Virus record (IMG/VR): IMGVR_UViG_3300001798_000006
Coordinates: 1 to 64,000 of that record
Reading direction: 5' to 3' (one strand)
Length of the DNA: 64,000 nt
Source of the DNA: a virus
The position numbers were made by a program, and so were the translations under genes. Position 1 is the stretch's first letter; each line of letters opens with the position of its first letter. The notes under the pieces are model-generated. The model worked only from the letters and a program-made list of their open reading frames with translations. It was not told the DNA's origin and searched no databases. Of the stretch, positions 33,545 through 55,944 are shown piece by piece.

Positions 33545-33572
33545 ATTATAACGCGGTTTTGCCGCGTGTCAA
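33545..33572 (-). promoter_or_regulatory. Inverted-repeat-spacer promoter, left of divergent pair
   Basis: TTGACA (33572-33567), 16-bp spacer with CGCGG/CCGCG, TATAAT (33550-33545). Divergent from the 33660 promoter; the 33573-33659 stretch between them shows no gene. Confidence 0.85.
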
Positions 33573-33659
33573 GCCAATTTCCACATGGCGTGAAAATCGC
33601 CATTTTCTGAAAATATCATAATGAACATTTTGTGTTTCGTGTTGTGGGATTTAAGGAGG

Positions 33660-33688
33660 TTGACGGCGGCTCGCCGCCGTGATATAGT
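33660..33688 (+). promoter_or_regulatory. Inverted-repeat-spacer promoter, leaderless gene
   Basis: TTGACG (33660-33665), 17-bp spacer GCGGC...GCCGC ending TGA, TATAGT (33683-33688). The ATG begins 6 bp later at 33695. Confidence 0.88.
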
Positions 33689-33694
33689 TAGGTC

Positions 33695-33919
33695 ATGAGC
33701 GAAAAATATCGTTACTCCCGTGAAAACTTACTTGCTGAAATTAAGCGAATAGCTCCTGGTCTAGAATTAGCCACTGGAATTATTGGCAATCAAATTCATC
33801 TGCCTAAAGCATGTCAAATCGCTGCGTCTGTTGCTTTTGTACAGAATTTGGATTCTGATATGCTGCGTCAGGCATTAATTGACCTTGAAGTGGACGGATG
33901 TTTTAATTTTACGGAGTAA
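33695..33919 (+). CDS. Small helical protein, predicted leaderless; paralogue of 37969
   Basis: 74 residues. No Shine-Dalgarno; the -10 box ends 6 bp before the ATG, so +1 should be the A of ATG. KYRYSRENLLAEIKRIAPG and LDSDMLRQALIDLEVDGCF parallel the 37969 protein (TYTKKSLREECRRILVDN, QQAIQALQNFGDF), which has the same promoter arrangement. Function unknown. Confidence 0.75.
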   Translation: MSEKYRYSRENLLAEIKRIAPGLELATGIIGNQIHLPKACQIAASVAFVQNLDSDMLRQALIDLEVDGCFNFTE

Positions 33920-33920
33920 A

Positions 33921-34541
33921 ATGAGTAATTACAAAGGTGTCCCATATATTTCTGACGGAGAATTGCTTAAAATCACTCCTGAGCAATTAAATGATCTAAA
34001 GACGCTTTACGAGAGCGTAAACGCCCATAATAAGCAAGTTCGCCACGAATTGGCGAACAAGTATAAGAGCCTAGTATTGCTGGCCAACGAAATTTGGGGC
34101 AATACTTCCAAAGAATATAGATATTTAAGTAAGGCCGGGGCTCCGTGGTGTCCATACCGTATCGAATTTGAAGAACTTACTAGGCGAATTGAAGATGCTC
34201 GTAAAAAGGTCTTACTCGCAGAACAAACAAAGAATGCTAATAGTGCGGCTATTAAAGTGCGTGACGAGGCTATCGCGTTCCTACTGGAACGCGGTAAGAA
34301 ATTTGGACAAGATTTTACTAGCGAGTCAGCCTTCTATGATGCCCGCGAAGTCAAATTTGAAGAATTAAAAGCAGCAGCCACTAAAGATGAAAAGTGGCAT
34401 AGTTTTAATGGTCAAAATTGTGATGGTCCCTGTAAAGGATGGGACGGGTTAAGTCGTCGCTGCGAATGTGGGAATCGCCGTGTCGATTGGACTTCCGAAG
34501 GTGATTTTAGCGACATGTATATTTATGGAGAGGCATACTAA
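33921..34541 (+). CDS. Hypothetical phage protein with Cys cluster
   Basis: Start at ATG 33921 (MSNYKGVPY) after CGGAG; 206 residues. A long coiled-coil region (about 20-160) leads to a C-terminal CDGPCKGWDGLSRRCECGNRR knuckle and an acidic tail. The layout recalls small-phage proteins with a terminal zinc knuckle. Function unknown. Confidence 0.65.
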   Translation: MSNYKGVPYISDGELLKITPEQLNDLKTLYESVNAHNKQVRHELANKYKSLVLLANEIWGNTSKEYRYLSKAGAPWCPYRIEFEELTRRIEDARKKVLLAEQTKNANSAAIKVRDEAIAFLLERGKKFGQDFTSESAFYDAREVKFEELKAAATKDEKWHSFNGQNCDGPCKGWDGLSRRCECGNRRVDWTSEGDFSDMYIYGEAY

Positions 34542-35227: not shown

Positions 35228-35256
35228 TTGACACGGCATATAGGCCGTGATATGTT
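35228..35256 (+). promoter_or_regulatory. Inverted-repeat-spacer promoter
   Basis: TTGACA (35228-35233), 17-bp spacer CGGC...GCCG ending TGA, TATGTT (35251-35256). ATG 35266 is 9 bp further, leaving a leader of at most a few nucleotides. Confidence 0.85.
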
Positions 35257-35623: not shown

Positions 35624-35881
35624 ATGAGAATTCATCTAAGTCTCATTAATGAATATGGCGGGCGTAGTCTTGGCTATGCCACTTCTATTCAAGAACTTGC
35701 AAATCTTGAAAAGTGTGAACTTTGGCATAACGAACGATTCTGCTATTCGTCTGATAGTGGCCATTGTGATATGCCGCGAGACCACGCGATTCAAATTCTT
35801 ATTTCCCAGTACATTATCAACGAAATAATTGCCGAGGAACAAATGCTGGATTGCTGGCTGGCTAGAAATAATATTACTTGA
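35624..35881 (+). CDS. Hypothetical protein
   Basis: 85 residues, not recognised. It ends at the TTGAC box of the next promoter: the stop TGA is part of the -35 element. Confidence 0.55.
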   Translation: MRIHLSLINEYGGRSLGYATSIQELANLEKCELWHNERFCYSSDSGHCDMPRDHAIQILISQYIINEIIAEEQMLDCWLARNNIT

Positions 35882-35905
35882 CTCATGGCAACGCCGTGAT
35901 AAGCT
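35878..35905 (+). promoter_or_regulatory. Promoter of tRNA
   Basis: TTGACT (35878-35883), 16-bp spacer GGC...GCC ending GTGA, TAAGCT (35900-35905). Reads into the tRNA at 35925. Confidence 0.8.
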
Positions 35906-36016: not shown

Positions 36017-36033
36017 TTGCTTCGGAGAAGCAA
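36017..36033 (+). promoter_or_regulatory. Ribosome site in hairpin loop
   Basis: TTGCTT, CGGAG, AAGCAA, then ATG 36034. The same 17 bp is found before the 45243 gene. Confidence 0.7.
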
Positions 36034-36204
36034 ATGACACCCAAAGAATGGGCCGAACAATATGCGGCCGGTCGTCGTGACGCTGAGCAATACATTAAAA
36101 AGTATGGCGATAGAGTTAAGTATGAAGAATATAATGACCGAAAAATGTTAGCCCCTTATCAGCAAGGTTATAATGATAGGATGGATTGCCCGGAGGGCAA
36201 ATAA
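36034..36204 (+). CDS. 56-residue basic protein with GYND motif
   Basis: ATG 36034 after the GGAG-loop hairpin; the longer frame begins inside the tRNA and is rejected. EWAEQYAAGRRDAEQYIKKYG and PYQQGYNDRMD give two G-containing helical units, loosely like RMF-type proteins. TAATG overlap with the next gene. Confidence 0.65.
   Translation: MTPKEWAEQYAAGRRDAEQYIKKYGDRVKYEEYNDRKMLAPYQQGYNDRMDCPEGK
36186..36200 (+). promoter_or_regulatory. Ribosome site in hairpin loop
   Basis: TTGCCC, GGA, GGGCAA, then ATA and ATG 36204. The arms are identical to the minus-strand site at 27537, although located in coding sequence here. Confidence 0.65.
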
Positions 36205-36374: not shown

Positions 36375-36636
36375 AATTCGACAAATCCAAACTGACTATG
36401 GCATCACTGATGCCAGTATGTTATATTTGATTGCTGATTATACTGACGGAAACCCGTCATTACCTCTAACGCAAATTCTGGACAGTATTTGTGAGTGGGA
36501 GGAAGAGGCTATCTCTAATGAAGATAGCTATGATGATTATGATGATTATGATTATGAAGATCCATATTTTGATAGCGAAGATTTAATTTATGATCCTTCT
36601 TATTATCCAGAAGATTGGGATGATGAGCCATTTTAG
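36361..36636 (+). CDS. Acidic-tailed protein, tandem paralogue
   Basis: 91 residues. After a 50-residue part like the preceding product, an extremely acidic Asp/Tyr/Glu tail (DSYDDYDDYDYEDPYFDSED) follows. Such tails can mimic nucleic acid and are common in anti-nuclease proteins; this is inference. Confidence 0.6.
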   Translation: MLIHRIRQIQTDYGITDASMLYLIADYTDGNPSLPLTQILDSICEWEEEAISNEDSYDDYDDYDYEDPYFDSEDLIYDPSYYPEDWDDEPF

Positions 36637-36650
36637 TTGCCGGAGGCAAC
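36636..36650 (+). promoter_or_regulatory. Ribosome site in hairpin loop
   Basis: GTTGCC, GGA, GGCAAC, immediately before ATG 36651. A 6-bp perfect stem; its first G is the last base of the previous stop codon. Confidence 0.7.
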
Positions 36651-36845
36651 ATGAAAATCCAAAATAGAGTCGTATTTACGTTTAGTAATGATTGTACTTA
36701 CTGCATTGAATTTCACGAAAATGAACGCGAGTTCCATATTTTAGACGAGGATGAAAATAGCCTAGCTATGGTTATTCCAGAGAAAGATATGACAGATTTT
36801 ATTTGTATGCTGTCAGACTTTAATCATGAACAGCAGGGACATTAA
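36651..36845 (+). CDS. Small hypothetical protein
   Basis: 64 residues, strands FTFSNDCTYCIEFHENEREF with a helix after. Not recognised. Start fixed by the adjoining hairpin ribosome site. Confidence 0.6.
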   Translation: MKIQNRVVFTFSNDCTYCIEFHENEREFHILDEDENSLAMVIPEKDMTDFICMLSDFNHEQQGH

Positions 36846-37491: not shown

Positions 37492-37937
37492 ATGAACCCT
37501 TTTCAGAATATAAAGCCGGGCACTATTTTTCACTTTAGAGATGATACCTGTCAAATATATGATTGTAAAGACGGGGAGTAGGACGCCCGATTATTGGAGC
37601 CAAATTTAGTCTCACAGCCTGTAGCGACAATTTAGTATTCTTTTCGCATTGCGATACTAAACATTCTTACGTTCTAGGCATTGGCAACGCGGACATTAAA
37701 ATTAGTACATGCTCCGTTAAAAGAAAACTTGACACGTTAAATTATGAAATAAAATTTAGGTTTTGTCATCCTACTAACATGTTATGTGTTATTATTGGCA
37801 GTTATCAACAATCACATAAAATTGAGACATTTGAAGTAGTATTTAAGGGAAAAGATTCAATTACTATTCAACGCGAAAATTCATTATCAAAATATATTGT
37901 AGCGAATATTGAGCATGAGATCGAAATTATCACTTGA
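37492..37937 (+). pseudogene. GxxF-family gene broken by a frameshift
   Basis: ATG 37492 reads MNPFQNIKPGTIFHFRDDTC and stops at TAG 37579 after 29 codons. From about 37570 the neighbouring frame is open to TGA 37937 and reads RPIIGAKFSLTACSDN, VLGIGNADIKIS and beyond. Adding one base near 37575-37583 restores a single about 148-residue protein. The start belongs to the family at 5323, 5990, 39264 and 39535. Either a recent mutation or a sequencing error. Confidence 0.65.
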
Positions 37938-37962
37938 CGGCTGCTTGCAGCCGTGATAAGCT
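37934..37962 (+). promoter_or_regulatory. Inverted-repeat-spacer promoter, leaderless gene
   Basis: TTGACG (37934-37939), 17-bp spacer GCTGC-TT-GCAGC ending TGA, TAAGCT (37957-37962). ATG 37969 is 6 bp later. Confidence 0.88.
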
Positions 37963-38190: not shown

Positions 38191-38243
38191 CGAGGCTTAA
38201 GCCTCAAATTTGCCGAGAGACGGCAAAAGAAAGTGAGCATGTA

Positions 38244-38828: not shown

Positions 38829-38857
38829 TTGACGTCTCTTGCGAGCCGTGATACACT
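38829..38857 (+). promoter_or_regulatory. Promoter of deaminase operon
   Basis: TTGACG (38829-38834), 17-bp spacer ending GTGA, TACACT (38852-38857). Start codon at 38884. Confidence 0.8.
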
Positions 38858-39999: not shown

Positions 40000-40349
40000 C
40001 TCGCCAAATTATTTATGATCGTGTCCGCGATCACCTTTTAAAGCAAAATTGTAGAGCTATAGATGGTGCAAAGTGTCTTTATCGCGGTCGCAATGGAACC
40101 AAATGTGCTATCGGGGCTCTTATTCCTGACTCGTGTTATCGGCCGGAATTTGATTTTGGCAGTAAAGGAATCCACGTATTACTTGGTATCTATACTCCTA
40201 TTGATATTTTTGGAGAAGAATTAGCTCCTGATGTATCAATACCTTTCTTACAAAATATACAAGCAATTCATGATAACACTTATGTTAAAGTTTCAGAATG
40301 GCCACTTATGTTGACTGAATTTGCTAAGGCACATGAATTAATTCCTTAG
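39993..40349 (+). CDS. Conserved phage protein
   Basis: 118 residues. LLKQNCRAIDGAKCLYRGRNGTKCAIGALIPDSCY is a motif I recall from many tailed phages: a cysteine, then YR, GxKCAxGxLI and a following Y. Function unknown. It overlaps the upstream stop by 7 bp and ends with an AGTGCGGC-TAT-GCCGCACT hairpin. Confidence 0.7.
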   Translation: MLTRQIIYDRVRDHLLKQNCRAIDGAKCLYRGRNGTKCAIGALIPDSCYRPEFDFGSKGIHVLLGIYTPIDIFGEELAPDVSIPFLQNIQAIHDNTYVKVSEWPLMLTEFAKAHELIP

Positions 40350-40366
40350 TGCGGCTATGCCGCACT
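40348..40366. repeat. Perfect hairpin at gene end, TAT loop
   Basis: AGTGCGGC, TAT, GCCGCACT: 8-bp stem with a 3-nt loop ending on the first T of the next TTGACT box. Confidence 0.65.
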
Positions 40367-40393
40367 TGACTCACGACTAGGGAGTGATATACT
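40366..40393 (+). promoter_or_regulatory. Promoter of leaderless gene
   Basis: TTGACT (40366-40371), 16-bp spacer ending GTGA, TATACT (40388-40393), ATG 40400 6 bp later. Confidence 0.85.
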
Positions 40394-40981: not shown

Positions 40982-41010
40982 AGAGTATCACGGCCCGTGC
41001 GGGCCGTCAA
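40982..41010 (-). promoter_or_regulatory. Inverted-repeat-spacer promoter of small RNA
   Basis: TTGACG (41010-41005), 17-bp spacer GCCC-GCAC-GGGC ending GTGA, TACTCT (40987-40982). Confidence 0.85.
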
Positions 41011-41160: not shown

Positions 41161-41188
41161 AGAGTATCACGGTATTTCATGCCGTCAA
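41161..41188 (-). promoter_or_regulatory. Promoter of small RNA
   Basis: TTGACG (41188-41183), 16-bp spacer with ACGG...CCGT, TACTCT (41166-41161). Confidence 0.8.
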
Positions 41189-41242: not shown

Positions 41243-41271
41243 TTGACGGCTCTTGCGGGCCGTGATATCTT
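41243..41271 (+). promoter_or_regulatory. Inverted-repeat-spacer promoter, leaderless gene
   Basis: TTGACG (41243-41248), 17-bp spacer GCTC...GGGC ending GTGA, TATCTT (41266-41271); ATG 41278 6 bp later. Confidence 0.87.
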
Positions 41272-41277
41272 AGTGGC

Positions 41278-41511
41278 ATGGAAACGACTGCGAAGCGAAT
41301 CGAAGCCCTGCCGATTAAGATTGTCATTGCCGATCTTGATTCGAGCGATAGTTTCATCTATCCTGATATCGACTGTCGGGATTATGCAAGCTTTTCAAGC
41401 TTGCCGTTGTGCCTGGAATATCAGGGCTTGACCTATGTTCGCTCCGCGTTCAATTCGGATACTGGTAGTGTCGCCTATCGTCGAAGTGATAATATTGCAA
41501 GAGAAATTTGA
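41278..41511 (+). CDS. Small protein, predicted leaderless
   Basis: 77 residues, strand-rich (LPIKIVIADLDSSDSFIYPD, LCLEYQGLTYVRSAF). No ribosome site. Its stop codon lies within the next -35 box. Function unknown. Confidence 0.68.
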   Translation: METTAKRIEALPIKIVIADLDSSDSFIYPDIDCRDYASFSSLPLCLEYQGLTYVRSAFNSDTGSVAYRRSDNIAREI

Positions 41512-41536
41512 CTGCCCTGTCGGGCAGTGATAGATT
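41508..41536 (+). promoter_or_regulatory. Inverted-repeat-spacer promoter
   Basis: TTGACT (41508-41513), 17-bp spacer GCCC-TGTC-GGGC with T-A replacing G-C next to the arms, TAGATT (41531-41536). A leader hairpin CCGG-AATAAT-CCGG follows. Confidence 0.85.
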
Positions 41537-41780: not shown

Positions 41781-41809
41781 TTGACGGCCCGCAAGGGCCG
41801 TGATAAGAT
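41781..41809 (+). promoter_or_regulatory. Inverted-repeat-spacer promoter of DUF932 gene
   Basis: TTGACG (41781-41786), spacer GCCC-GCAA-GGGC ending GTGA, TAAGAT (41804-41809). Leader hairpin GGGCTGC-AATAGT-GCGGCCC and GGAG precede ATG 41865. Confidence 0.87.
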
Positions 41810-41864
41810 TCAAGCGAATTCAAAAGCGGGCTGCAATAGTGCGGCCCAACGGAGATAAATAACA

Positions 41865-42866
41865 ATGGCCGATATGGTAGTCAAGAGTCGAGCGGGCTAT
41901 GCCCGAGGGGCCGCATGGCATAATAAGGGCCGGGTTATCGAGCCGGACGATAACGGCCGAATCCCGGTCCCTAGTGAATTCGCTAAGCTTGTTGGACTCG
42001 GCTATAATGTCGAGAAGCGGCCCGCCTATCAATGTATTATTGGGCCGGATGGTCCTACGTTCTCGGAAGTTCCGAATCAATTCCATATCGTAAGAAGTGA
42101 CGACGGATTCATTCTGTCGGACGCCACGGTTACGGAGCGATATAGCCCGTGCAATCCGGCCGATATGGCAGAGATTCTCGATTATTTCGCCCGCGAGGGT
42201 TTTGGGTCAACCGATGCGGCTTTCGTTCTCTATGATGGAAAGAGCGAAGTTATCGCCCTCCGTCTCGATTATGGGAACGATGCGGCTCTTTCCGTGCCGG
42301 GCGACACTTCGCCCTATGAGAATTATCTCGTTTTCCAGAATTTTCACGACGGAAACGCAATCCGTTATAAGCTTGTTCGGCACCGTGTCGTTTGCCATAA
42401 TACGATCACGACGGGTTTTAGTGGCGGTGCCGATGGTTCGATCCGTCACACGGGCGATATCAAGGATAAACTCCAATTCGCTCGGGCGACTTGGGAAGCG
42501 GCCCGGAAGGAAATTGCGGCTCATTCCGAAAAGTTGGGTCTTCTCATGGATTGCCCGGCTTCGGTGGAGTCTACCGTTGATAAGCTTCTCGGGATTGACC
42601 GAAACGACTTGGATAACGTTTCGGCCCAGAAAATCAATCTCGCGGAACGTATCGTCGGAGCGGCCCGCAATCCTATCAATTATGCTGGCAAGCCCGAGAC
42701 GTTCGGGGCGATTTTCCAGGGTATCACCTATCTTAACTCTAACTGGGCTGGTAATAAGGGCAATCGGACGGCCGAAAAGCGGCTCGAAAGTATTCTCGGG
42801 GGCACGGCTGGAAAGTTCGAGGCCCAGTCCTGGGCTTTCCTTGCCGAAGCGGCCGGAATCAGCTAA
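41865..42866 (+). CDS. DUF932 / TIGR03299-like protein
   Basis: 333 residues. The N-terminal AAWHNKGRVIEP, then the central PYENYLVFQNFHDGNAIRYKL, VRHRVVCHNTI and HTGDIKDKLQFARATW, match the DUF932 family (phage/plasmid-like protein TIGR03299), in which the conserved RVVCxNT region follows a beta core. Members are common in phages and plasmids and near DNA metabolism genes; activity unknown. It is the largest gene of the GC-rich arm. Confidence 0.85.
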   Translation: MADMVVKSRAGYARGAAWHNKGRVIEPDDNGRIPVPSEFAKLVGLGYNVEKRPAYQCIIGPDGPTFSEVPNQFHIVRSDDGFILSDATVTERYSPCNPADMAEILDYFAREGFGSTDAAFVLYDGKSEVIALRLDYGNDAALSVPGDTSPYENYLVFQNFHDGNAIRYKLVRHRVVCHNTITTGFSGGADGSIRHTGDIKDKLQFARATWEAARKEIAAHSEKLGLLMDCPASVESTVDKLLGIDRNDLDNVSAQKINLAERIVGAARNPINYAGKPETFGAIFQGITYLNSNWAGNKGNRTAEKRLESILGGTAGKFEAQSWAFLAEAAGIS

Positions 42867-42909
42867 GCTTTGGAGTCTCGCAAGCCCGGCCGCAATCGTG
42901 CGGCCGGGC

Positions 42910-42937
42910 TTGACAGTAGGCTAGAACGTGATAACCT
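42910..42937 (+). promoter_or_regulatory. Sigma70-like promoter
   Basis: TTGACA (42910-42915), 16-bp spacer ending GTGA, TAACCT (42932-42937). A leader hairpin GGGCCGC-GATTGT-GCGGCTC and GGAGCGAAG follow. Confidence 0.8.
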
Positions 42938-42978
42938 AATGGGCCGCGATTGTGCGGCTCATAATTGGAGCGAAGCTA

Positions 42979-43338
42979 ATGAAAGTTATCTCGCAAGTTC
43001 AGGCGGTTAATCTTATTGGATCGACTAACGGTAAGATTTTCTCTGCTATCGTCCGGCCGCGAACGCCGAATAAGGAAACGGGCCAGTATACGGCACGCGA
43101 ATATCGTTGCCGACTGGCAGAAAACGTCACTAAGGGGCTCAAGGGCGGAAAGTTGGGATTCTCGCCCGGTGCTAACGGGCTGATTATGGTATATCTCATG
43201 CCCGGCGATTCGGGATATAATCCCGATGATGCCAGTAAGAATCGGCGTTTTATCGCCGTTGAAGGTATCCTCACACTTCGCATTGGAGGAGTCGATTATT
43301 CGGTGCCCGAGAATAGCGGGGCGGTTCTTCCCGCGTGA
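42979..43338 (+). CDS. Hypothetical protein
   Basis: Start at ATG 42979 (MKVISQVQAVNLIG) after GGAGCGAAGCTA; 119 residues. Strands KIFSAIVRPRTPN and EYRCRLAENVTKGLKGG, then GANGLIMVYLMPGDSGY and RFIAVEGILTLRIGG form a beta-rich domain that could be nucleic-acid binding. Not identified. Confidence 0.68.
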   Translation: MKVISQVQAVNLIGSTNGKIFSAIVRPRTPNKETGQYTAREYRCRLAENVTKGLKGGKLGFSPGANGLIMVYLMPGDSGYNPDDASKNRRFIAVEGILTLRIGGVDYSVPENSGAVLPA

Positions 43339-43517
43339 TCGGGGGCAGAGCGTTCGCCCGTTCCGTGAGTAGAACTAAGCCCGGCCGCGATGAAGCGGCC
43401 GGGCTTGATTCGGACGGGCTGGAAAATCCCATTAGGGTTATATGGGAGACTCTGCTATGGGTTATTCTTATTAGCATTGTCGGGCTCTATATCAAGTTAT
43501 TCAAAGGGGGCGAATAA
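43335..43517 (+). CDS. Possible single-TM protein
   Basis: GTG 43335 overlaps the upstream stop. About 60 residues with a C-terminal hydrophobic span (VIWETLLWVILISIVGLYI). An 11-bp hairpin (43379-43406) lies within its 5' part, so either the start is later or the hairpin is coding. Confidence 0.4.
   Translation: MIGGRAFARSVSRTKPGRDEAAGLDSDGLENPIRVIWETLLWVILISIVGLYIKLFKGGE
43379..43406 (+). other. 11-bp hairpin, leader or terminator type
   Basis: AGCCCGGCCGC, loop GATGAA, GCGGCCGGGCT, then TGATT. Resembles the leader hairpins of this arm but lacks a promoter before it. Confidence 0.5.
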
Positions 43518-43519: not shown

Positions 43520-44215
43520 ATGGGCTTTGCCCTTATCACTTTGGATAATCATAAGATAGAAAAGGCTAAGGCATTCGGCTATTTAAATGCTATCCTACAC
43601 TTAGCACCGGCAAGCTTGAGCGGGCGAAACGTCTGCCCAAAATCGTCGGCCGGATGTCGGGCCGCTTGCCTGAATACCTCGGGATATGGGAAATATCGGC
43701 CCGTGCAAGCGGCCCGCGTGAGGAAAACCCGGCTTTTGTACCAGAAGCCGGAAGAATTCCGAACGTTGCTTAGAAACGATTTAGCGGCTCTTGTGCGGGC
43801 CGCTAAGCGGCAAGGTTTAATTCCCGCTATCAGGCTAAACGGCACTTCTGATATCGTATGGGAAAAGCGTATGCCGGAAATTTTTGCCGAATTCCCGACA
43901 CTGCAATTCTACGACTATACAAAGCTTTCGCATAGGCTCAAGTCGGGCTATACTTTGCCCACTAATTATCACTTGACGTTTTCGGCAAGCGAAAATAATT
44001 GGCTGGAATGCAAAGCGGCTCTTGAGCGTGGGTTTAACGTTGCTATCGTCTTTCGAGACGATATTCCTAAATGGTTTAACGGCTATGCCGTTATAGACGG
44101 CGATATCCACGATCTAAGATTTTTGGACTTAAGCCCTTGTATCGTCGGGCTTTCTCCGAAAGCCCGTGCTAAGAAAGATAATACGGGATTTGTTCACGCG
44201 GGCTTGACAAGCTAA
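43520..44215 (+). CDS. Gp88-like phage protein
   Basis: 231 residues. LSGRNVCPKSSAGCRAACLN with four cysteines, then ARVRKTRLLYQKPEEF, AIRLNGTSDIVWE and a late FRDDIPKWFNGYAVIDGD match phage gene product 88-like proteins. The cysteines probably bind a metal or cluster; activity unknown. It ends inside the -35 box of the next promoter. Confidence 0.8.
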   Translation: MGFALITLDNHKIEKAKAFGYLNAILHLAPASLSGRNVCPKSSAGCRAACLNTSGYGKYRPVQAARVRKTRLLYQKPEEFRTLLRNDLAALVRAAKRQGLIPAIRLNGTSDIVWEKRMPEIFAEFPTLQFYDYTKLSHRLKSGYTLPTNYHLTFSASENNWLECKAALERGFNVAIVFRDDIPKWFNGYAVIDGDIHDLRFLDLSPCIVGLSPKARAKKDNTGFVHAGLTS

Positions 44216-44231
44216 GCCCGCGTGATAGGCT
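44204..44231 (+). promoter_or_regulatory. Sigma70-like promoter
   Basis: TTGACA (44204-44209), 16-bp spacer ending GTGA, TAGGCT (44226-44231). Starts the about 195-nt RNA before the 44398 terminator. Confidence 0.78.
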
Positions 44232-44435: not shown

Positions 44436-44463
44436 TTGACAATCTGCTAGGAAGTGATATATT
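44436..44463 (+). promoter_or_regulatory. Promoter of cREC gene
   Basis: TTGACA (44436-44441), 16-bp spacer ending GTGA, TATATT (44458-44463). GCGGAGCGAAAT precedes ATG 44496. Confidence 0.82.
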
Positions 44464-44807: not shown

Positions 44808-44955
44808 AATTTACACTTTTTGGGTGGAATTAGAAACCGGACAAGTTAAAACGGGATTTATGCAAGCCCGTAGCATTAAATGGGCTTTATTTAAACTCAA
44901 GCGGCGACTGCCATTATGGCATAGAATCGAAGTGGAAATCTTTTCCGGCACTTGA
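44797..44955 (+). CDS. Small hypothetical protein
   Basis: Start at ATG 44797 (MVSKIYTFWVELETG), overlapping the cREC stop, with GGAGCCGCG before it; 52 residues, strand-helix-strand. Coupled to the cREC gene. Confidence 0.58.
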   Translation: MVSKIYTFWVELETGQVKTGFMQARSIKWALFKLKRRLPLWHRIEVEIFSGT

Positions 44956-44980
44956 CACGGCACAAGGGCCGTGATACACT
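44952..44980 (+). promoter_or_regulatory. Inverted-repeat-spacer promoter
   Basis: TTGACA (44952-44957), 17-bp spacer CACGGC...GCCGTG, TACACT (44975-44980). GAGCGGAGCGAAA precedes ATG 45010. Confidence 0.86.
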
Positions 44981-45972: not shown

Positions 45973-45981
45973 CTCTTTTAA

Positions 45982-46082: not shown

Positions 46083-46111
46083 TTGCCTTTCCCGTCCTGC
46101 CGTGATACCTT
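46083..46111 (+). promoter_or_regulatory. Promoter with structured leader
   Basis: TTGCCT (46083-46088), 17-bp spacer ending GTGA, TACCTT (46106-46111). A weaker -35 than usual. The leader to 46217 has GAGCGGC/GCCGCTC enclosing ATGCCC/GGGTAT. Confidence 0.6.
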
Positions 46112-46216
46112 TCTAGCGTCCAATTGAGCGGCACTTAAGAATAGTCTGCCAGCTATGCCCGACACGGGTTCCGGTTGGGTATGGGCCGCTCATTCTCTTC
46201 TATGGGAGATTTCCTC

Positions 46217-46384
46217 ATGTTCCCTGGAAATATCGTCGCGGTCCTAGACTCGCCGGACGGGCTTCAAAAGCTTGTTGGCCCGTTCGCCAATGTCGGAGAA
46301 TGTCAAGCTTGGATCGACCGGCAGGGAAAGCCCACCGCCCCATTCGAGACTTGGCGGATTGCCGCTATTGAGGAGCCTAAGTAA
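46217..46384 (+). CDS. Small hypothetical protein
   Basis: Start chosen at ATG 46217 (MFPGNIVAVLDSPDG) because GGAG lies 10 bp upstream; earlier ATGs fall in the folded leader. 55 residues. IDRQGKPTAPFETWRIAAIEE pattern recurs in small phage proteins. TAATG overlap with the RMF-like gene. Confidence 0.58.
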   Translation: MFPGNIVAVLDSPDGLQKLVGPFANVGECQAWIDRQGKPTAPFETWRIAAIEEPK

Positions 46385-46683
46385 TGCCTGATAAATCCAA
46401 ACGTGGCCGATATCGTGGCTTAACCCATTATGATAGGGGCTTTCTTAGGGGCTTTACGCTCTATTCCCTGGAATGGTATATGTCAAGCGGCCCGAATGCC
46501 CCTACAGGCTCTAAAGCTTATTTTCAGGGAATACGGGCAGGCTCTAATGCGGCAAGCGAAGCATGGGAAAAGCTTGAGGCTAATCCGCCCCATACTGGCA
46601 TTATATGGCTTTGGGACGGCACTAGCGGGTATCGCTATGCTTCTATGTCACTTTCCGATGCTGTAAGCTTGACTTCCCGTTGA
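46384..46683 (+). CDS. RMF-like small protein
   Basis: 99 residues. HYDRGFLRGFTLYSLEW and SKAYFQGIRAGSNAASEAWE carry two Y-x-x-GF/I-x-x-G units like those in ribosome modulation factor, where they surround a conserved core. Paralogous to the 47381 product. An L7/L12-like gene follows. Role in ribosome control is inference. Confidence 0.6.
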   Translation: MPDKSKRGRYRGLTHYDRGFLRGFTLYSLEWYMSSGPNAPTGSKAYFQGIRAGSNAASEAWEKLEANPPHTGIIWLWDGTSGYRYASMSLSDAVSLTSR

Positions 46684-46696
46684 ACCGTGATACTCT
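46669..46696 (+). promoter_or_regulatory. Promoter of L7/L12-like gene
   Basis: TTGACT (46669-46674), 16-bp spacer ending GTGA, TACTCT (46691-46696). Leader hairpin GTCCGC-GATAGT-GCGG and GAGCGAAGCG follow. Confidence 0.82.
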
Positions 46697-46742
46697 CTAG
46701 GTGTCCGCGATAGTGCGGCCCTTAAAATGAGCGAAGCGAATA

Positions 46743-47036
46743 ATGAGCTATCTTAATCAGATTATCAATAATATGTCCGATTGTGATAAGAATAAGATTT
46801 TGCTTGACGTTATTGGGAATGAGGAAGGCAAGCGACTTGAGATTGTCCGAATTTGTTTCATGGAAGTTTTGCCTCTTATTCCCAAGGTTAATAATGGCGG
46901 AAACGTTATCGGAGCGATTAAGGCTTTTCGGGCCGTGTCCGGGCTTGGGCTCAAGGAAAGTAAGGAATTCGTCGAAAAGTATATCGGCACGGCCCTAGTG
47001 AATTCGAGTCCGTTCGATAATATTTCCCGCACTTGA
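46743..47036 (+). CDS. Ribosomal protein L7/L12 C-terminal-domain-like protein
   Basis: 97 residues. The second half, LIPKVNNGGNVIGAIKAFRAVSGLGLKESKEFVEK, follows the bL12 C-terminal pattern (KIxVIKxVRxxTGLGLKEAKxLVE), the face that binds translation GTPases. The N-terminal helical part is unlike bL12's dimerisation domain. It could compete for EF-Tu or EF-G, or be a bacterial-type adaptor; unproven. Confidence 0.72.
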   Translation: MSYLNQIINNMSDCDKNKILLDVIGNEEGKRLEIVRICFMEVLPLIPKVNNGGNVIGAIKAFRAVSGLGLKESKEFVEKYIGTALVNSSPFDNISRT

Positions 47037-47060
47037 CTCCCGACTCGGCCGTGATACTAT
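47033..47060 (+). promoter_or_regulatory. Sigma70-like promoter
   Basis: TTGACT (47033-47038), 16-bp spacer ending GTGA, TACTAT (47055-47060). Leader hairpin GGCCCGC-AATAGT-GCGGCC follows. Confidence 0.82.
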
Positions 47061-47114
47061 TCTAGTGTCTCAAGCGGCCCGCAATAGTGCGGCCCTTTAA
47101 GTGAGCTAGCGAAT

Positions 47115-47336
47115 ATGGATTATTCTAAGAAAGTTAGCCGATTCGAGCGAAAGACTGGCTTTGAAACGTTTACAGATATGGTAGTCGAGACTGCCCAAAC
47201 GCTTAGGGAAAACCCTAATATGCGATTTGACAAAGCTTGGCAAGCTGGGGCTAGGCGAGCTAGCTTTAATGAACAATCGCTTGACTATCAAGAATGGAGC
47301 GGGGCAGTATCGGCCGCATTCGAGCGAATTGGGTAA
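47115..47336 (+). CDS. Small helical protein
   Basis: 73 residues (MDYSKKVSRFERKTGFETFTD, then FDKAWQAGARRASFNEQ). Helical, basic, not recognised. The AWQAGARRA segment loosely recalls the GxxxG units of its RMF-like neighbours. Confidence 0.6.
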   Translation: MDYSKKVSRFERKTGFETFTDMVVETAQTLRENPNMRFDKAWQAGARRASFNEQSLDYQEWSGAVSAAFERIG

Positions 47337-47346
47337 ATTTCCCCAC

Positions 47347-47374
47347 TTGACATTGCCTGAAAACGGGATATTCT
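47347..47374 (+). promoter_or_regulatory. Promoter of leaderless gene
   Basis: TTGACA (47347-47352), 16-bp spacer ending GGGA, TATTCT (47369-47374); ATG 47381 6 bp later. No spacer inverted repeat. Confidence 0.8.
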
Positions 47375-47380
47375 ACTAGC

Positions 47381-47548
47381 ATGAAACGCGAAGCGGAATA
47401 CAATCGGGGCTTTCAAGCGGGCTTGAGACAGTATGGGGGGCTTTATGCAAGCGGTTCTCAAGCGTATATTCAGGGCTTTCTAGACGGAGTTAAAGCCCAG
47501 AAATTGAAAACGCAAGCTTTAAGCTATGCCAATTCGCAGAATTGCTAG
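47381..47548 (+). CDS. RMF-like small protein, predicted leaderless
   Basis: 55 residues from ATG 47381. EYNRGFQAGLRQYGGLY and SQAYIQGFLDGVKAQK are two Y-x-x-GF-x-x-G units as in ribosome modulation factor (about 55 residues), and match the 46384 product. Basic. The size is right for RMF, but key ribosome-contact residues cannot be checked here. Confidence 0.62.
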   Translation: MKREAEYNRGFQAGLRQYGGLYASGSQAYIQGFLDGVKAQKLKTQALSYANSQNC

Positions 47549-47571
47549 AAGTATCCAGAAAATCGACATAA

Positions 47572-47598
47572 GGGGCGAGGACGACCGAATCCCGCCCC
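47572..47598 (+). terminator. Terminator-like hairpin
   Basis: GGGGCGaGG with CCCGCCCC around about 10 nt, followed by TCTCACTTTGAG rather than a U-tract; it leads directly into the first TCTCA palindrome. Confidence 0.45.
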
Positions 47599-47611
47599 TC
47601 TCACTTTGAGA
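47599..47611. promoter_or_regulatory. TCTCAnnnTGAGA palindrome
   Basis: TCTCA-CTT-TGAGA. First of three copies in the about 340-bp gene-free stretch 47549-47889. Confidence 0.55.
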
Positions 47612-47642
47612 ATCAATTTGAGTGTTACCTAACGGTAACGTT

Positions 47643-47655
47643 TCTCAGAATGAGA
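47643..47655. promoter_or_regulatory. TCTCAnnnTGAGA palindrome
   Basis: TCTCA-GAA-TGAGA, extendable to 15 bp with flanking T and A. A GTTACC/GGTAAC inverted repeat lies just upstream at about 47624-47638. Confidence 0.55.
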
Positions 47656-47817
47656 ATGCACGTTTTGGTGCAATCGGCAATTCTTGCCGTGCGGAATCGC
47701 TCGGCTTTCAGCCGATGCGATAACTCCTGAAATACGTTCAATTTGCCTATAAATCATTGATTTTCAGGAATTTGCGTCAGAATGAACCATATCACGTTCA
47801 AAATGAGAATTCGTTTC

Positions 47818-47830
47818 TCTCAAAATGAGA
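47818..47830. promoter_or_regulatory. TCTCAnnnTGAGA palindrome next to promoter
   Basis: TCTCA-AAA-TGAGA ends 1 bp before the TTGACG box of the 47832 promoter. A half-like copy (TTCA-AAA-TGAGAA) is at 47797-47809. The position suits an activator or repressor site. Confidence 0.6.
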
Positions 47831-47831
47831 T

Positions 47832-47860
47832 TTGACGGCCCGCATGGGCCGTGATACTCT
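47832..47860 (+). promoter_or_regulatory. Inverted-repeat-spacer promoter
   Basis: TTGACG (47832-47837), 17-bp spacer GCCC-GCAT-GGGC ending GTGA, TACTCT (47855-47860). GGAG precedes ATG 47890. Confidence 0.87.
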
Positions 47861-47889
47861 TTTCGGTCAATGTAAACGGAGCCCCTAAC

Positions 47890-48150
47890 ATGAAGACGAA
47901 TCGCAATCGTCGTCGTTTTGCCGACCACGACAAAGCTATTGCTTTCGCGTGCCGTGCGGACGGCAATCGCGGTATTTGGGATTTTACTGACGACGTATGG
48001 CAGCCGTGGATTGACTATTTCATGGGCCTTGGAAATGGTATCTGTTCCCATGTTAGGCTCATGCCAAACGGAAACGTGATTCTCGTCCGAAAGCTTCGGG
48101 CGAAATTTGCAAAGTATTCGGGCCGAATCCTAAGCTACCAAACGGTTTAA
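47890..48150 (+). CDS. Small hypothetical protein
   Basis: Start at ATG 47890 (MKTNRNRRRFADHDKAIAF); 86 residues, basic. GIWDFTDDVWQPWIDYFMGLGNG and VRLMPNGNVILVRKL form a strand-rich core. Not recognised. Confidence 0.62.
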   Translation: MKTNRNRRRFADHDKAIAFACRADGNRGIWDFTDDVWQPWIDYFMGLGNGICSHVRLMPNGNVILVRKLRAKFAKYSGRILSYQTV

Positions 48151-48158
48151 AGAATTAT

Positions 48159-48187
48159 TTGACACGGGCTAAAGCCCGTGATACTCT
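48159..48187 (+). promoter_or_regulatory. Inverted-repeat-spacer promoter
   Basis: TTGACA (48159-48164), 17-bp spacer CACGGGCT/AGCCCGTG, TACTCT (48182-48187). GGAGCGAAGCTAAC precedes ATG 48236. Confidence 0.87.
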
Positions 48188-48235
48188 TTTGCCGAAGTTA
48201 ATTCCCGTTGGGACGGCAAACGGAGCGAAGCTAAC

Positions 48236-48535
48236 ATGGAATACCGAAACGTTACCCTCATGACGGCTCTTGAGCGGCCCATTGGGACGCTAGAATCCGG
48301 CCGATACGTCCAATGTCGGCCGGATAAGGAAACCGTCGTGCTAGTCGGCCCGACGGGCCGTCGCCACTATCTCGACAGTGGCCAGTATGGTCGGGCCGAC
48401 ATTCGAGACGATGGCCCCGCTTCCGGGCTTTGCGAATCCACCGATACTTGGTTACGTTCTAATCCGGCCGCTCAAGCTGTTAAGGGGCTTGAGGGATATT
48501 CCCTGAAAACCGATCAAGAGGATTCGACATCATGA
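48236..48535 (+). CDS. Hypothetical protein
   Basis: 99 residues. TALERPIGTLESGRYVQCRPD and VVLVGPTGRRHYLDSGQYG suggest a beta-rich domain. Not recognised. ATGA overlap with the next gene. Confidence 0.6.
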   Translation: MEYRNVTLMTALERPIGTLESGRYVQCRPDKETVVLVGPTGRRHYLDSGQYGRADIRDDGPASGLCESTDTWLRSNPAAQAVKGLEGYSLKTDQEDSTS

Positions 48536-48747
48536 CAATCGCCGAATGGATTGCCCTAGCGGAAGAATGCGGCCCGCAAACCGTAGCGTGCAATGCCGTA
48601 ACATGCGAAACGGCCGTCCGGGCTATGATGATGCTAGGCTCGAATCCGGCGAAGCCCCTATTGGAAGCGGCCGCTTGTTGGGCTGCGATAAACCCTGATA
48701 GTTTCGCCATTAACGAAAATCGTTTCGGCAAATTTGACGGGGCCTGA
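48532..48747 (+). CDS. Small helical protein (AAAxW type)
   Basis: 71 residues, MTIAEWIALAEECG start and AAACWAAINPDSF helix, similar in layout to the 32406 and 50208 products. Overlaps the upstream stop by 4 bp. Its end overlaps the next promoter. Confidence 0.58.
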   Translation: MTIAEWIALAEECGPQTVACNAVTCETAVRAMMMLGSNPAKPLLEAAACWAAINPDSFAINENRFGKFDGA

Positions 48748-48761
48748 AAACGTGATATTCT
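48734..48761 (+). promoter_or_regulatory. Sigma70-like promoter with long leader hairpin
   Basis: TTGACG (48734-48739), 16-bp spacer ending GTGA, TATTCT (48756-48761). The leader forms GCGTCGT/ACGACGC plus inner TCGG/CCG pairs, then GGAGCGAAGCAACG. Confidence 0.8.
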
Positions 48762-48808
48762 TTTGCGTCGTTCGGAATCGTCCGACGACGCAACGGAGCG
48801 AAGCAACG

Positions 48809-48925
48809 ATGAAAACGCGAGCGGCCCTCCTGATTCTCGGATGCGTCGGGCTTGTCTTTCTGGGCCTGAAAATCATGGCAGCTGCCTATGCTACGCTTGA
48901 GGCTTGCCAGAAAATCGGACAATAA
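48809..48925 (+). CDS. 38-residue single-TM protein
   Basis: ATG 48809 after GGAGCGAAGC; MKTRAALLILGCVGLVFLGL is a single hydrophobic span with a possible weak lipobox-like LGC. Not identified. Confidence 0.55.
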   Translation: MKTRAALLILGCVGLVFLGLKIMAAAYATLEACQKIGQ

Positions 48926-48926
48926 C

Positions 48927-49193
48927 ATGACGCGACACTACTTCGGCCGGGCAATTGCTACCTACTATATCGCCGACTGTATCGGCGATATTCCGCACGG
49001 GCCGCATATCTATATCAATCCGGTCCGGGATCATGAGCCTAGCACAAGCCCGCACTATCGGGACATTGGGCAGGGCAGAGCCCACCTAATCATTCGGCCC
49101 GATAGGGCCGAATGGGAATATGCTGATATCGACGTAATTCCTGACTGGGTATGCGATAAGCAAAACATTGAGATTTTCTGGGAAACGGAGTAA
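48927..49193 (+). CDS. Small hypothetical protein
   Basis: Start at ATG 48927 (MTRHYFGRAIATYYIADC), 1 bp after the upstream stop; 88 residues, with PHYRDIGQGRAHLIIRPD. Not recognised. Confidence 0.58.
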   Translation: MTRHYFGRAIATYYIADCIGDIPHGPHIYINPVRDHEPSTSPHYRDIGQGRAHLIIRPDRAEWEYADIDVIPDWVCDKQNIEIFWETE

Positions 49194-49265
49194 AGCTTTT
49201 CGGGAAACGTGCCGATATACTCTTTGTCGGGCCGCAATAGTGCGGCCCGCAACGGAGCGAAAATC

Positions 49266-49463
49266 ATGAGCGACTGGAATTCGTGGAATGACGCTACTCC
49301 GAAACGGCCCGTCAAGCGGGCCACGAAAGCCCCTTCCGTCGCCACGATGGAACGTTGGATGTCCACTGGCAAGGCGAAAACGCCCTGTGGCTGTACCGTC
49401 GAACCGGACGGCCGTTGTACTCACGGCCGGGATTCGTGGATTCTGATTCTCGGGCTCATCTAG
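49266..49463 (+). CDS. Small basic protein with Cys motif
   Basis: Start at ATG 49266 after leader hairpin GGGCCGC-AATAGT-GCGGCCC and GGAGCGAAAATC; 65 residues. A basic linker (KRPVKRATKAPSV) then CGCTVEPDGRCTHG, a likely zinc site. The promoter is weak: TATACT at 49216 without a good -35. Confidence 0.6.
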   Translation: MSDWNSWNDATPKRPVKRATKAPSVATMERWMSTGKAKTPCGCTVEPDGRCTHGRDSWILILGLI

Positions 49464-49476
49464 TCTCAAAATGAGA
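49464..49476. promoter_or_regulatory. TCTCAnnnTGAGA palindrome
   Basis: TCTCA-AAA-TGAGA, identical to the 47818 copy, 16 bp upstream of the 49493 promoter. Confidence 0.58.
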
Positions 49477-49492
49477 AGAACGGGCGTCCTAG

Positions 49493-49521
49493 TGGACGCC
49501 CGTTCAAGCCCGTGATATCAT
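49493..49521 (+). promoter_or_regulatory. Promoter of last plus-strand gene
   Basis: TGGACG (49493-49498), 17-bp spacer ending GTGA, TATCAT (49516-49521). Leader hairpin GGCCGG-AATGAT-CCGGCC and GGAGCGAG follow. Confidence 0.72.
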
Positions 49522-49579
49522 TATTCCGAAGTAGATAGCACGGCCGGAATGATCCGGCCCGAATCGAACGGAGCGAGAA

Positions 49580-53600: not shown

Positions 53601-54571
53601 TGTGCTATCCTCATAATGGGCCTATCAAATTTAATGCTGCGTATCGTATTCACTTGACCGCCTTGTGGCCAAGCGAATAGATCTAAGCGTGATTTCCAGT
53701 AAAAGTTACCCTCATTCCAAGTAACAGTTAATCTTGGAATGGCTACCCTATTATCATTAAGAATAAGTGATAGTGTCCAGGCGTCAGCGATATCTTCTCT
53801 CTCGGGCCATAACATGTTACCAACTAAAACACCATTCTGATAACAGAGTGAAATATGATCTCCATTAATAAGCACCCTACCATTAAGATCTGCTGCTAAA
53901 TTACGCGGTCTTGATATATCTGTATATGTATTTATAGGCTGCCACGAATCTGGATTTGCATCAATAATTCTATAACTAGTGACTACTTGACTTTTCATAA
54001 TCCAAATAAGATTACCGTCATAAGCAGCATCTTTGATACCACTTAATGCCGACACAGTAATAGTATTACGTATATCGCCGAAGGCGAACCACGTTATAGT
54101 TCCATTGGAACTAAAAAAGTAAATATCGTCGCCAATAATTAACATCTTAATGCATTGGGGTATCTCTTCCCTGCGAAGCAATACGCCCGTCGCGGCATTA
54201 ACAATAAAGTATGTTGCTGATTCCCTTTGAGTAATAGATGCATACCCGGCTATTCTTCCATTAGAGATATTATGGGACTCCCTAATAAAAGGGGTGATAC
54301 TAACTAGTGACGACACAGTACGGCTATCGCCGCTCCATATTTCTAATCTGCGATTAGTAGAGGCTACCCCACCAAAGGTGATTATACTATTACTTTGTGC
54401 TGCAAAGCTTTCCTTATGATATTCGTCAGTATTATCTGGCATCACGTGCTGGTTATAATCGGCATCCACTCTTATTATTTGTGGTGGTAGTCGCAAATCA
54501 AAATTCCAATTAGTAGAGACCCATATGTCGCTGCCTAGCATAGCTAGACATAAGGCTAATGCTGCTAGCAT
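53597..54571 (-). CDS. Exported propeller-like protein 3
   Basis: 324 residues with a short signal (MLAALALCLAMLGS). The mature start DIWVSTNWNFDLRLPPQIIRVD and ITFGGVASTNRRLEIWSGD match the 18953 protein; strand-rich repeats with W and G follow. It ends the row of three such genes in the window. Likely exported; target unknown. Confidence 0.62.
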   Translation of the reverse strand: MLAALALCLAMLGSDIWVSTNWNFDLRLPPQIIRVDADYNQHVMPDNTDEYHKESFAAQSNSIITFGGVASTNRRLEIWSGDSRTVSSLVSITPFIRESHNISNGRIAGYASITQRESATYFIVNAATGVLLRREEIPQCIKMLIIGDDIYFFSSNGTITWFAFGDIRNTITVSALSGIKDAAYDGNLIWIMKSQVVTSYRIIDANPDSWQPINTYTDISRPRNLAADLNGRVLINGDHISLCYQNGVLVGNMLWPEREDIADAWTLSLILNDNRVAIPRLTVTWNEGNFYWKSRLDLFAWPQGGQVNTIRSIKFDRPIMRIAQ

Positions 54572-54572
54572 A

Positions 54573-55214
54573 TTATTTCTCGCTTATCCTTCCATAATCA
54601 TCGTCGGCTCGCTCGATATCGTCTTCGCCAAAGTAAGTGCCCGTTTGCACTTCAATAAAAGTCAGTCCCTCCGGGCCTGACTTAACGCGGTGCCAATAAC
54701 CAACTGGTATTTCCGCTTGTTTAACGAAGTCATATTGCTGTATATTTTCAAGGCATTCACCGAGATAAACATAGCCGCTTCCTTCGATAATTTTCCATAG
54801 CTCAGAACGCTTCGCGTGTCGTTGTAAAGACATACGAGCATTAGGCTTCATAATAATGAGTTTAATCTTGTAGCTATCGCTACTTTCAATTACTCGATAA
54901 TTGCCCCATGGCCTTTCTTCCGGCAGAAGGATATCTTTCAAGCCAGCCTCGGCTAGGATGCGTAGCATCTTAACATGTTCTAAGTCCGGCGTCGGACTTT
55001 TTTCCATTTCTTCGACAGTAGCTAAGATGGCCTTTGGCCACTTATTAATTACGCCGGTTATGTTATAGCCAACTATCTCTTTGGTGTCCTGATCCCTTAA
55101 AAGGGTCAGGCCACCATCTATCCAATCACCATAATATGCATTAGGATGCTTTTTAAAAAGCACTTCTAGCATATCTCCCGCTTGATTGTACCAAACTACA
55201 GGTTTATCAGCCAT
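54573..55214 (-). CDS. Cupin like type II mannose-6-phosphate isomerase, with DUF2283-like N terminus
   Basis: 213 residues. Residues 1-50 (VVWYNQAGDMLEVLFKK) look like DUF2283. The cupin part (about 100-205) has RPWGNYRVI, MSLQRHAKRSELW, PVGYWHRVKSG and EVQTGTYFGEDDIER, metal ligands typical of PMI type II (ManC C-terminal). It could isomerise a sugar phosphate or bind sugar nucleotide, perhaps for glycan or DNA modification with the 61-63 kb glycosyltransferases. Confidence 0.78.
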   Translation of the reverse strand: MADKPVVWYNQAGDMLEVLFKKHPNAYYGDWIDGGLTLLRDQDTKEIVGYNITGVINKWPKAILATVEEMEKSPTPDLEHVKMLRILAEAGLKDILLPEERPWGNYRVIESSDSYKIKLIIMKPNARMSLQRHAKRSELWKIIEGSGYVYLGECLENIQQYDFVKQAEIPVGYWHRVKSGPEGLTFIEVQTGTYFGEDDIERADDDYGRISEK

Positions 55215-55389
55215 TCTTTTCTAACGCCTCCAATTTTTTAATATGCTCCGCATCATATTTGATTTCACACTGAGGCCATTTTTCACTAAAAATGGTGATT
55301 GATTTCAAATTATGATTTATTATAACCTCTGTTATATCTTTGGGGTTAATTATAATATCGACGCCGTAAGGCGTCTCAAGTTTTAGCAT
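55207..55389 (-). CDS. Small protein
   Basis: Start at ATG 55389 (MLKLETPYGVDIIIN) after GGAGAGC; 60 residues, strand-rich. Overlaps both neighbours. Confidence 0.55.
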   Translation of the reverse strand: MLKLETPYGVDIIINPKDITEVIINHNLKSITIFSEKWPQCEIKYDAEHIKKLEALEKNG

Positions 55390-55600
55390 TGTTGCTCTCC
55401 GGGCACAAGTTTTCAAAAAGTTTAGCATTAGCTGCATATGCTGCTTTAATGGCAGCAACTTCTTCTCTGCTCATTTTTGCATAATACCAGGCAAAGCTGA
55501 CTCTCGTTATAAACTTCCAGTTATGCTGATTATAAGCATAAATGAATCGACGCAAAAAACGAGGGAAGTTATCTCGCATGGACCAGTCATCTAGAGTCAT
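55376..55600 (-). CDS. Small helical protein, predicted leaderless
   Basis: 74 residues, helical (TLDDWSMRDNFPRFLRRFIYA, REEVAAIKAAYAANAKL). No ribosome site; ATG 55600 is 6 bp after a -10. The only leaderless candidate found on the minus strand. Confidence 0.65.
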   Translation of the reverse strand: MTLDDWSMRDNFPRFLRRFIYAYNQHNWKFITRVSFAWYYAKMSREEVAAIKAAYAANAKLFENLCPESNNAKT

Positions 55601-55944
55601 GACACTATTATATCGCCTTCGGCGATATCTGTCAAGTCGAATCTCATACTCAGCACATTACGGTGCTTCGTATTTACTATAAAACCATCAAGTATTAGAG
55701 TTTGTAAATTAAACGTAAGCACAACACCATTATTCTCTGGATAATCAAATTCAACGCTGACGCAATTTACTCTATCTGGCATAGGATAAATATAAAGTTT
55801 TGGACAATTAAATATTGCGGCTGCTGCTGCAAGTAGCCTTCCCCCACGCTCTAAGAGGGCGTGATCATAGGCTTTTCCATCTCCATCAAACCAACCATCT
55901 TTTAGCTCCGCCAGATCTTGAAAATCTTCAATTATGTAGTTCAT
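55597..55944 (-). CDS. Hypothetical protein
   Basis: 115 residues: DLAELKDGWFDGDGKAYD, then helices and a strand-rich C-terminal half. The LKDGWxDGxG motif recurs in small phage and bacterial proteins; function unknown. Confidence 0.65.
   Translation of the reverse strand: MNYIIEDFQDLAELKDGWFDGDGKAYDHALLERGGRLLAAAAAIFNCPKLYIYPMPDRVNCVSVEFDYPENNGVVLTFNLQTLILDGFIVNTKHRNVLSMRFDLTDIAEGDIIVS
55607..55635 (-). promoter_or_regulatory. Inverted-repeat-spacer promoter, leaderless gene
   Basis: TTGACA (55635-55630), 17-bp spacer ATATCGCC-GAA-GGCGATAT running into TATAAT (55612-55607), ATG 55600 6 bp later. It lies within the 3' end of the 55597 gene. Confidence 0.88.

Follow-up and report, generated by a model that had tools for sequence, protein, structure and literature searches.

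The window analysed here covers positions 1–64,000 of a virus record of 177,274 bp (IMG/VR IMGVR_UViG_3300001798_000006), and the subject is a family of promoters, part of which carry an inverted repeat (IR) in the spacer between the −35 and −10 boxes. We identified 31 strict matches to TTGAC-N16/17-TGNTAnnnT in the window, where 0.45 would be expected and no shuffle (n = 100) gave more than 2, and only 4 further strict matches in the remaining 113 kb of the record. These 31 sites have the TTGACA-like −35, the 16–18-bp spacer and the TGnTAnnnT element of sigma70-type extended −10 promoters. With one mismatch permitted and obvious coding matches dropped, the count rises to about 37, including 7 sites that depart from the strict pattern, 2 of which (33572 and 55635) had known repeats when they were added; the strict set is significant for spacer repeats by itself. 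The promoters span 5.7–58 kb on both strands, most of them directly upstream of open reading frames (ORFs). The initial annotation had described more than 30 promoters on both strands sharing TTGAC, a 16–17-bp spacer and a TGA-extended −10, which agrees with these counts, and all the promoter sites it quoted are found as written; its range of 33545–55635 does contain promoters but is too narrow for the full set.

Judged by their motifs, the sites are probably early promoters read by the host RNA polymerase (sigma70-type, extended −10). At six of them an ATG lies exactly 6 nt past the −10 (Table 1), often in the context TAGCATG, so leaderless mRNAs are likely there; the position of these ATGs is suggestive, but only that, of RNA starts near the −10.

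Inverted repeats in promoter spacers

The presence of spacer repeats is confirmed. Thirteen of the 37 promoters have a perfect IR (stem of at least 6) wholly within the promoter core, in 4 others the repeat lacks one or two pairs, and at 5 promoters a repeat overlaps or abuts the −35 (Table 1). Among the promoters originally said to lack a repeat, 47347 does lack one, but 42910 has an IR over its −35 and 44436 has one just upstream. The repeats are concentrated at the promoters: stems of at least 6 occur in 13/37 cores versus 13/370 flanking windows of equal length within 120 bp on either side (P = 1.5e-8), and stems of at least 7 in 10/37 versus 6/370.

In the 17-bp class, after removal of sites with duplicate arms (n = 17), the longest perfect stem is at least 6 in 9 sites, compared with 0.24 for shuffled spacers and 2.4 for promoters given each other's right halves (P ≤ 5e-4 for both). 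As the exchange retains the consensus of each half, the excess reflects covariation and not two independent consensus halves. The comparison with shuffled spacers that had been proposed for these sites thus yields an excess, and the claim that the arms change together is borne out for this class, although 41781, 47832 and 40982, listed as separate examples, share one pair of arms and cannot count as independent. Arm sequences differ between promoters while pairing is retained, and the dyad centre varies, with paired-index sums (index 0 being the first T of TTGAC) of 23 for the ACGGCCC type, 25 for the CACGGCC type, 27 at 33080, 26 at 33572 and 32 at 55635; two further repeats, at 44204 and 31693, have the −35 at their centre.

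The loops also differ from those of other hairpins in the window. The four stable DNA tetraloop motifs of Nakano et al. (2002), d(cGNNAg), d(cGNABg), d(cCNNGg) and d(gCNNGc), occur in 7 of 9 perfect promoter repeats (1.9 expected) versus 4 of 33 other tetraloop hairpins (Fisher P = 3.6e-4). Under a loop-blind register rule, 11 of 14 promoter tetraloops match (3.1 expected), and with related loops collapsed 7 of 10 do (2.0 expected; P = 4.5e-4). The two strands contribute matches about equally, which is what DNA-level structure would give. The bias is supportive of structure at the DNA level, without being decisive. For the perfect spacer IRs, the hairpins predicted on each of the two strands range from −5.6 to −8.8 kcal/mol.

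Related phages and their promoters

Using an MCP-like protein as the query, we retrieved first five and later 47 loci in viral contigs; several of these belong to records of 130–210 kb. The protein itself (L001, 14880–16295) finds no counterpart among 50,697 named phages, the terminase shares about 25% identity with phages of Bacillus, and no relatives at the DNA level were found among named phages. DUF932-like, AAA+ and TerL proteins used as bait retrieved no viral contigs, and a search of viral contigs for the exact palindrome–promoter pattern gave no match. On these comparisons, the window's phage is a member of an undescribed lineage of large phages. A 158-kb family member (L104, NZ_JAILWB010000012.1) is binned in a metagenome-assembled genome of Hydrogenophaga sp., a hint that the host belongs to the Burkholderiales.

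The relatives carry the same promoter class, and the search of related phages that the initial annotation called for finds spacer repeats again, with different arms. Among 170 of their promoters (G000 excluded, obvious coding matches removed), 26, 11 and 7 have stems of at least 5, 6 and 7, respectively, versus 6.8, 1.3 and 0.23 in shuffles, and swapping halves across genomes gives P ≤ 0.012 at all three stem lengths and in both spacer classes. The arms include AGCACGC/GCGTGCT, TAGCACC/GGTGCTA, ACACGCT/AGCGTGT, ACAGGGC/GCCCTGT, ATCAC/GTGAT and ACCAC/GTGGT. At the free base of TGN each of the four possible pairs occurs (C-G 6, G-C 5, A-T 2, T-A 2); complementarity is here by construction, and it is the variety that is informative. 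Two promoters that are apparently orthologous, judged by the sequence just downstream (G004:151324 and G005:911), retain ACACG/CGTGT with the left arm shifted by 2 nt.

Some further features of these genomes were seen in passing. Relative G004 (L031) has eight identical copies of the hairpin GGGCGGAGAATCCGCCC at 8109–13898, and G000 (L003) encodes a sigma70 region-4-like domain at 123473–123580, in a 229-aa frame, possibly a phage sigma factor for later genes, where TTGAC/TGNTA promoters are rare. In the window, positions 28965–30242 encode an HNH endonuclease domain fused to a metallophosphoesterase domain.

Table 1. Promoters of the window. Sites are named in the text by their first (+ strand) or last (− strand) coordinate. 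Rows 1–13, perfect IR within the core; rows 14–17, near-perfect IR; rows 18–22, IR overlapping or abutting the −35; other sites follow.
Feature	Coordinates	Strand	Spacer (bp)	Inverted repeat	Remarks
Promoter	23526..23554	−	17	CACGGCC-taat-GGCCGTG (23533–23550)	
Promoter	33052..33080	−	17	TCACGCC-tgac-GGCGTGA (33058–33075)	template-strand loop cGTCAg
Promoter	33545..33572	−	16	ACGCGG-caaaa-CCGCGT	divergent partner of 33660
Promoter	33660..33688	+	17	ACGGCGG-ctcg-CCGCCGT	ATG 6 nt past −10 (leaderless type)
Promoter	35228..35256	+	17	CACGGC-atatag-GCCGTG	
Promoter	37934..37962	+	17	ACGGCTG-cttg-CAGCCGT	ATG 6 nt past −10
Promoter	40982..41010	−	17	ACGGCCC-gcac-GGGCCGT	
Promoter	41508..41536	+	17	ACTGCCC-tgtc-GGGCAGT	template-strand loop cGACAg
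Promoter	41781..41809	+	17	ACGGCCC-gcaa-GGGCCGT	
Promoter	44952..44980	+	17	CACGGC-acaagg-GCCGTG	
Promoter	47832..47860	+	17	ACGGCCC-gcat-GGGCCGT	
Promoter	48159..48187	+	17	CACGGGC-taaa-GCCCGTG	
Promoter	55607..55635	−	17	ATATCGCC-gaa-GGCGATAT, into −10	C-GAA-G triloop; ATG 6 nt past −10
Promoter	15980..16008	−		CACGACC-gcta-GGCTGTG (5/7 pairs)	loop cGCTAg
Promoter	28959..28987	−		CACGACC-ggaa-GGCCGTG (6/7 pairs)	loop cGGAAg
Promoter	38829..38857	+		ACGTCTC-ttgc-GAGCCGT (6/7 pairs)	template-strand loop cGCAAg
Promoter	41243..41271	+		ACGGCTC-ttgc-GGGCCGT (6/7 + one T.G)	interior like inverted 41781 interior; ATG 6 nt past −10
Promoter	31666..31693	−	16	one-mismatch, centred on −35 (31674–31704)	
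Promoter	40366..40393	+	16	8 bp, abuts −35 (40348–40366)	ATG 6 nt past −10
Promoter	42910..42937	+	16	14 bp, overlaps −35 (42881–42912)	
Promoter	44204..44231	+	16	12 bp, across −35 and spacer (44194–44225)	
Possible promoter	49493..49521	+		12 bp, over −35 (49478–49505)	TGGACG −35
Promoter	41161..41188	−	16	stem 4 bp only	divergent partner of 41243
Promoter	44436..44463	+		none in spacer; 11 bp upstream (44398–44423)	
Promoter	47347..47374	+		none in spacer	ATG 6 nt past −10
Promoter	46669..46696	+		none in spacer	
Promoter	47033..47060	+		none in spacer	
Promoter	48734..48761	+		none in spacer	
Promoter	46083..46111	+		none in spacer	TTGCCT −35
Promoter	35878..35905	+		none of at least 6	
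Weak promoter match	32751..32778	−		stem 4 bp only	−10 TATAAA
Promoter	13158..13185	−		none in spacer	
Promoter	12597..12625	−		none in spacer	
Promoter	8521..8549	−		none in spacer; 7 bp beginning in −10 (8507–8524)	
Promoter	18108..18136	−		no spacer stem of at least 6	
Promoter	58036..58064	−		none in spacer	
Weak promoter match	5712..5740	−		none in spacer	

Possible origin and function of the repeats

The covariation, the shifting dyad centre and the different arms in relatives together agree better with selection for structure than with a fixed protein site, as originally suggested, and this interpretation is partly supported, with a mutational origin competing. We tentatively propose, at somewhat less than even confidence, that the spacers have been selected to fold as DNA hairpins that act as a supercoiling-sensitive off-switch on early promoters of the host RNA polymerase. 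On relaxed DNA each site would be an ordinary promoter with a 17-bp spacer. As negative supercoiling rises, through gyrase action or torsion from neighboring transcription, the spacer DNA of a promoter subset would fold into two hairpins of about 7 bp with 3–4-nt loops; their extrusion would put the −35 and −10 boxes out of register and lower initiation, with no repressor required. Promoter activity, in vivo extrusion, an effect toward off and not on, and a role in timing are all inferred; the evidence points to folding of the promoter DNA as a switch for these genes but falls short of proof.

Several observations weigh against folding as a selected trait. Only about one third of the promoters have the repeat. 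The initial annotation did not separate 16- from 17-bp spacers, but in this genome the excess is confined to the 17-bp class: the strict 16-bp class has 0/11 stems of at least 6, no excess over chance. In the relatives, swapping halves within single genomes gives a weaker signal (P 0.04–0.35), and for those with full sequence the comparison with flanks is significant at stems of at least 7 only. The loop-motif test was devised after the loops had been seen, and its bias is unreplicated in the relatives (about 3/7 tetraloops). The computed cost of extrusion is 9–19 kcal/mol, so real torsion would be needed. Finally, the window holds 96 GC-rich perfect IRs (stem of at least 7, loop 3–8), compared with about 6 expected, an overall excess of short GC-rich palindromes of about 15-fold; given this general excess, covariation alone cannot prove selection.

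That excess bears most directly on the main and serious rival, possible rather than probable in our estimate, in which the repeats are a mutational by-product: template switching (quasipalindrome correction) would perfect near-palindromes and so create covariation without selection for structure, in spacers that tolerate changes and are seeded by partly complementary boxes (GAC/GTG). The known products of this process are new perfect hairpins, homogenized arms and inverted spacers or loops (PMC8794818, PMC8604942), and our data share with it perfect short IRs genome-wide, arm homogenization and a possible spacer inversion, the interior of 41243 resembling an inversion of the 41781 interior. 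Moreover, 69 of the 96 IRs fall within ORFs (a density of 1.2 per kb, against 2.8 per kb in intergenic DNA), loops of 3–4 nt predominate, and perfect stems are much more enriched than one-mismatch stems. Against control phages the palindrome excess is large but not peculiar to this one: stems of at least 9 number 23 versus 1.5 expected here, 26 versus 2.5 in CcrColossus and 6 versus 2.1 in T4, with none in MaeS and MTATph1. Template switching does not simply predict the enrichment of promoter cores, which exceed the DNA directly beside them about 10-fold, nor the DNA-stable loops by which promoter tetraloops differ from other hairpins. The palindrome excess is lower in the rest of the genome, and in relatives it is modest (mostly 1–5x), yet promoters of the relatives show about 30x at stems of at least 7. 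Between G004 and G005, which are only 75% identical to each other, clustering of changes on one arm (13%) is not clearly above the control (8%).

Other properties of the genome-wide hairpins were also recorded. A candidate origin as insertion elements was rejected, as hairpin residues in conserved proteins show 45% versus 41% identity and gaps are no commoner than elsewhere; coding hairpins have a weak bias toward gene ends, and an Rfam search found tRNAs only. Small hairpins before start codons, with an SD-like GGAG near the loop, lie at 36017–36036, 45226–45245, 36636–36655 and 38209–38227 (TTGCTTCggaGAAGCAAatg occurring twice identically). Several small genes at 41830–49560 have repeated, diverging hairpins (GGGCCGCAATAGTGCGGCCC type) in their 5′ untranslated regions, after the promoter and before the start codon, in a GC-rich island (about 51% at 40–44 kb versus about 40%).

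We consider it rather improbable that the repeats act instead as RNA hairpins in read-through transcripts, each a 3′-end stem (stabilizer, pause or weak terminator) sharing compact intergenic DNA with a promoter. Terminator-like repeats do overlap or precede the −35 at 42910, 44204 and 44436, and one-mismatch stems in the window show G.T 16 times versus A.C 3 times on the sense strand, but this ratio shrinks to 13:6 under automatic strand calls and to 82:63 in the relatives. Folding z-scores do not distinguish the sense from the antisense strand, loop motifs are strand-symmetric, and most repeats have no following U-tract. In addition, the divergent pairs 33572−/33660+ (repeats) and 41188−/41243+ (near-repeats) have no co-directional upstream gene needing an end.

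We give a small chance to an operator in the spacer for a dimeric repressor or activator with a half-site near (C)ACGGC/GCCGT(G), although ACGGC...GCCGT is common to nine 17-bp promoters and the right half is fixed beside the −10. The half-sites are not conserved at a fixed spacing: from class to class their distance changes by 2 bp (dyad sums 23, 25 and 27), and elsewhere by more, the arms become ACTGC/GCAGT, ACGGG/CCCGT, TCACGCC/GGCGTGA or ATATCGCC/GGCGATAT with pairing kept, and relatives use AGCACGC, TAGCACC and ACAGGGC. With dyad centre and arm sequences both varying, a single operator for a dimeric repressor appears unlikely.

Comparison with known systems and significance

Recognition by a virion RNA polymerase (vRNAP) as in phage N4, the nearest idea in the initial annotation, is not supported, as the sites keep full sigma70 boxes and no vRNAP-like protein was found among the large virion proteins scanned; a search for single-subunit RNA polymerase (PF00940) also gave no match, nor did its control. 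N4 early promoters likewise have stems of 5–7 bp, small loops and some stem bases that are free while pairing holds, but there vRNAP reads the promoter through the hairpin, and here full −35 and extended −10 boxes accompany mostly tetraloops. N4-like C-GNA-G loops are few (55635; G003:8444), and no C-GNA-G triloop hairpin replaces the −35 and −10 boxes. In T4-type PeSL cassettes, early phage promoters are accompanied by stem-loops at many loci, with the stem-loop outside the promoter; as these cassettes are generally described, they differ from the present sites, in which the stem-loop is the spacer itself.

Closer precedents exist for control by a cruciform. Horwitz and Loeb (1988; cited in PMC8637272 and PMC6060812) are credited with an E. 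coli promoter repressed by superhelix-induced cruciform extrusion, where, as in these phages, a palindrome lies at a sigma70-type promoter, and where extrusion disrupts the promoter. A palindrome able to form two hairpins is likewise present here, in the 13 perfect core IRs. As cited, theirs was one laboratory promoter; ours is a natural set, known from sequence, that occurs in many copies across a phage family and covaries. The spacer architecture itself has been built: with the P1 hairpin of N4 inserted between the −35 and −10 boxes of rrnB, the promoter was inactive in vivo, and inhibiting gyrase with novobiocin brought its activity back (PMC4496689). The initial annotation knew of no described sigma70 class of this kind; our literature search, which was limited, turned up no natural use at many genes, but the laboratory promoter and the engineered N4 construct are earlier instances of cruciform control.

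It is doubtful, though conceivable, that these phages define a natural class of repressor-free, supercoiling-gated sigma70 promoters, in which hairpins with DNA-stable tetraloops are kept by compensatory change and which fire on relaxed incoming DNA and shut once it is supercoiled. Either outcome is informative. If the palindromes are mutational, they would be a strong natural case of template switching yielding covariation without selection, and a warning for structure calls based on covariation; if the cruciform reading is true, this phage family would possess a timing switch encoded solely in DNA shape.

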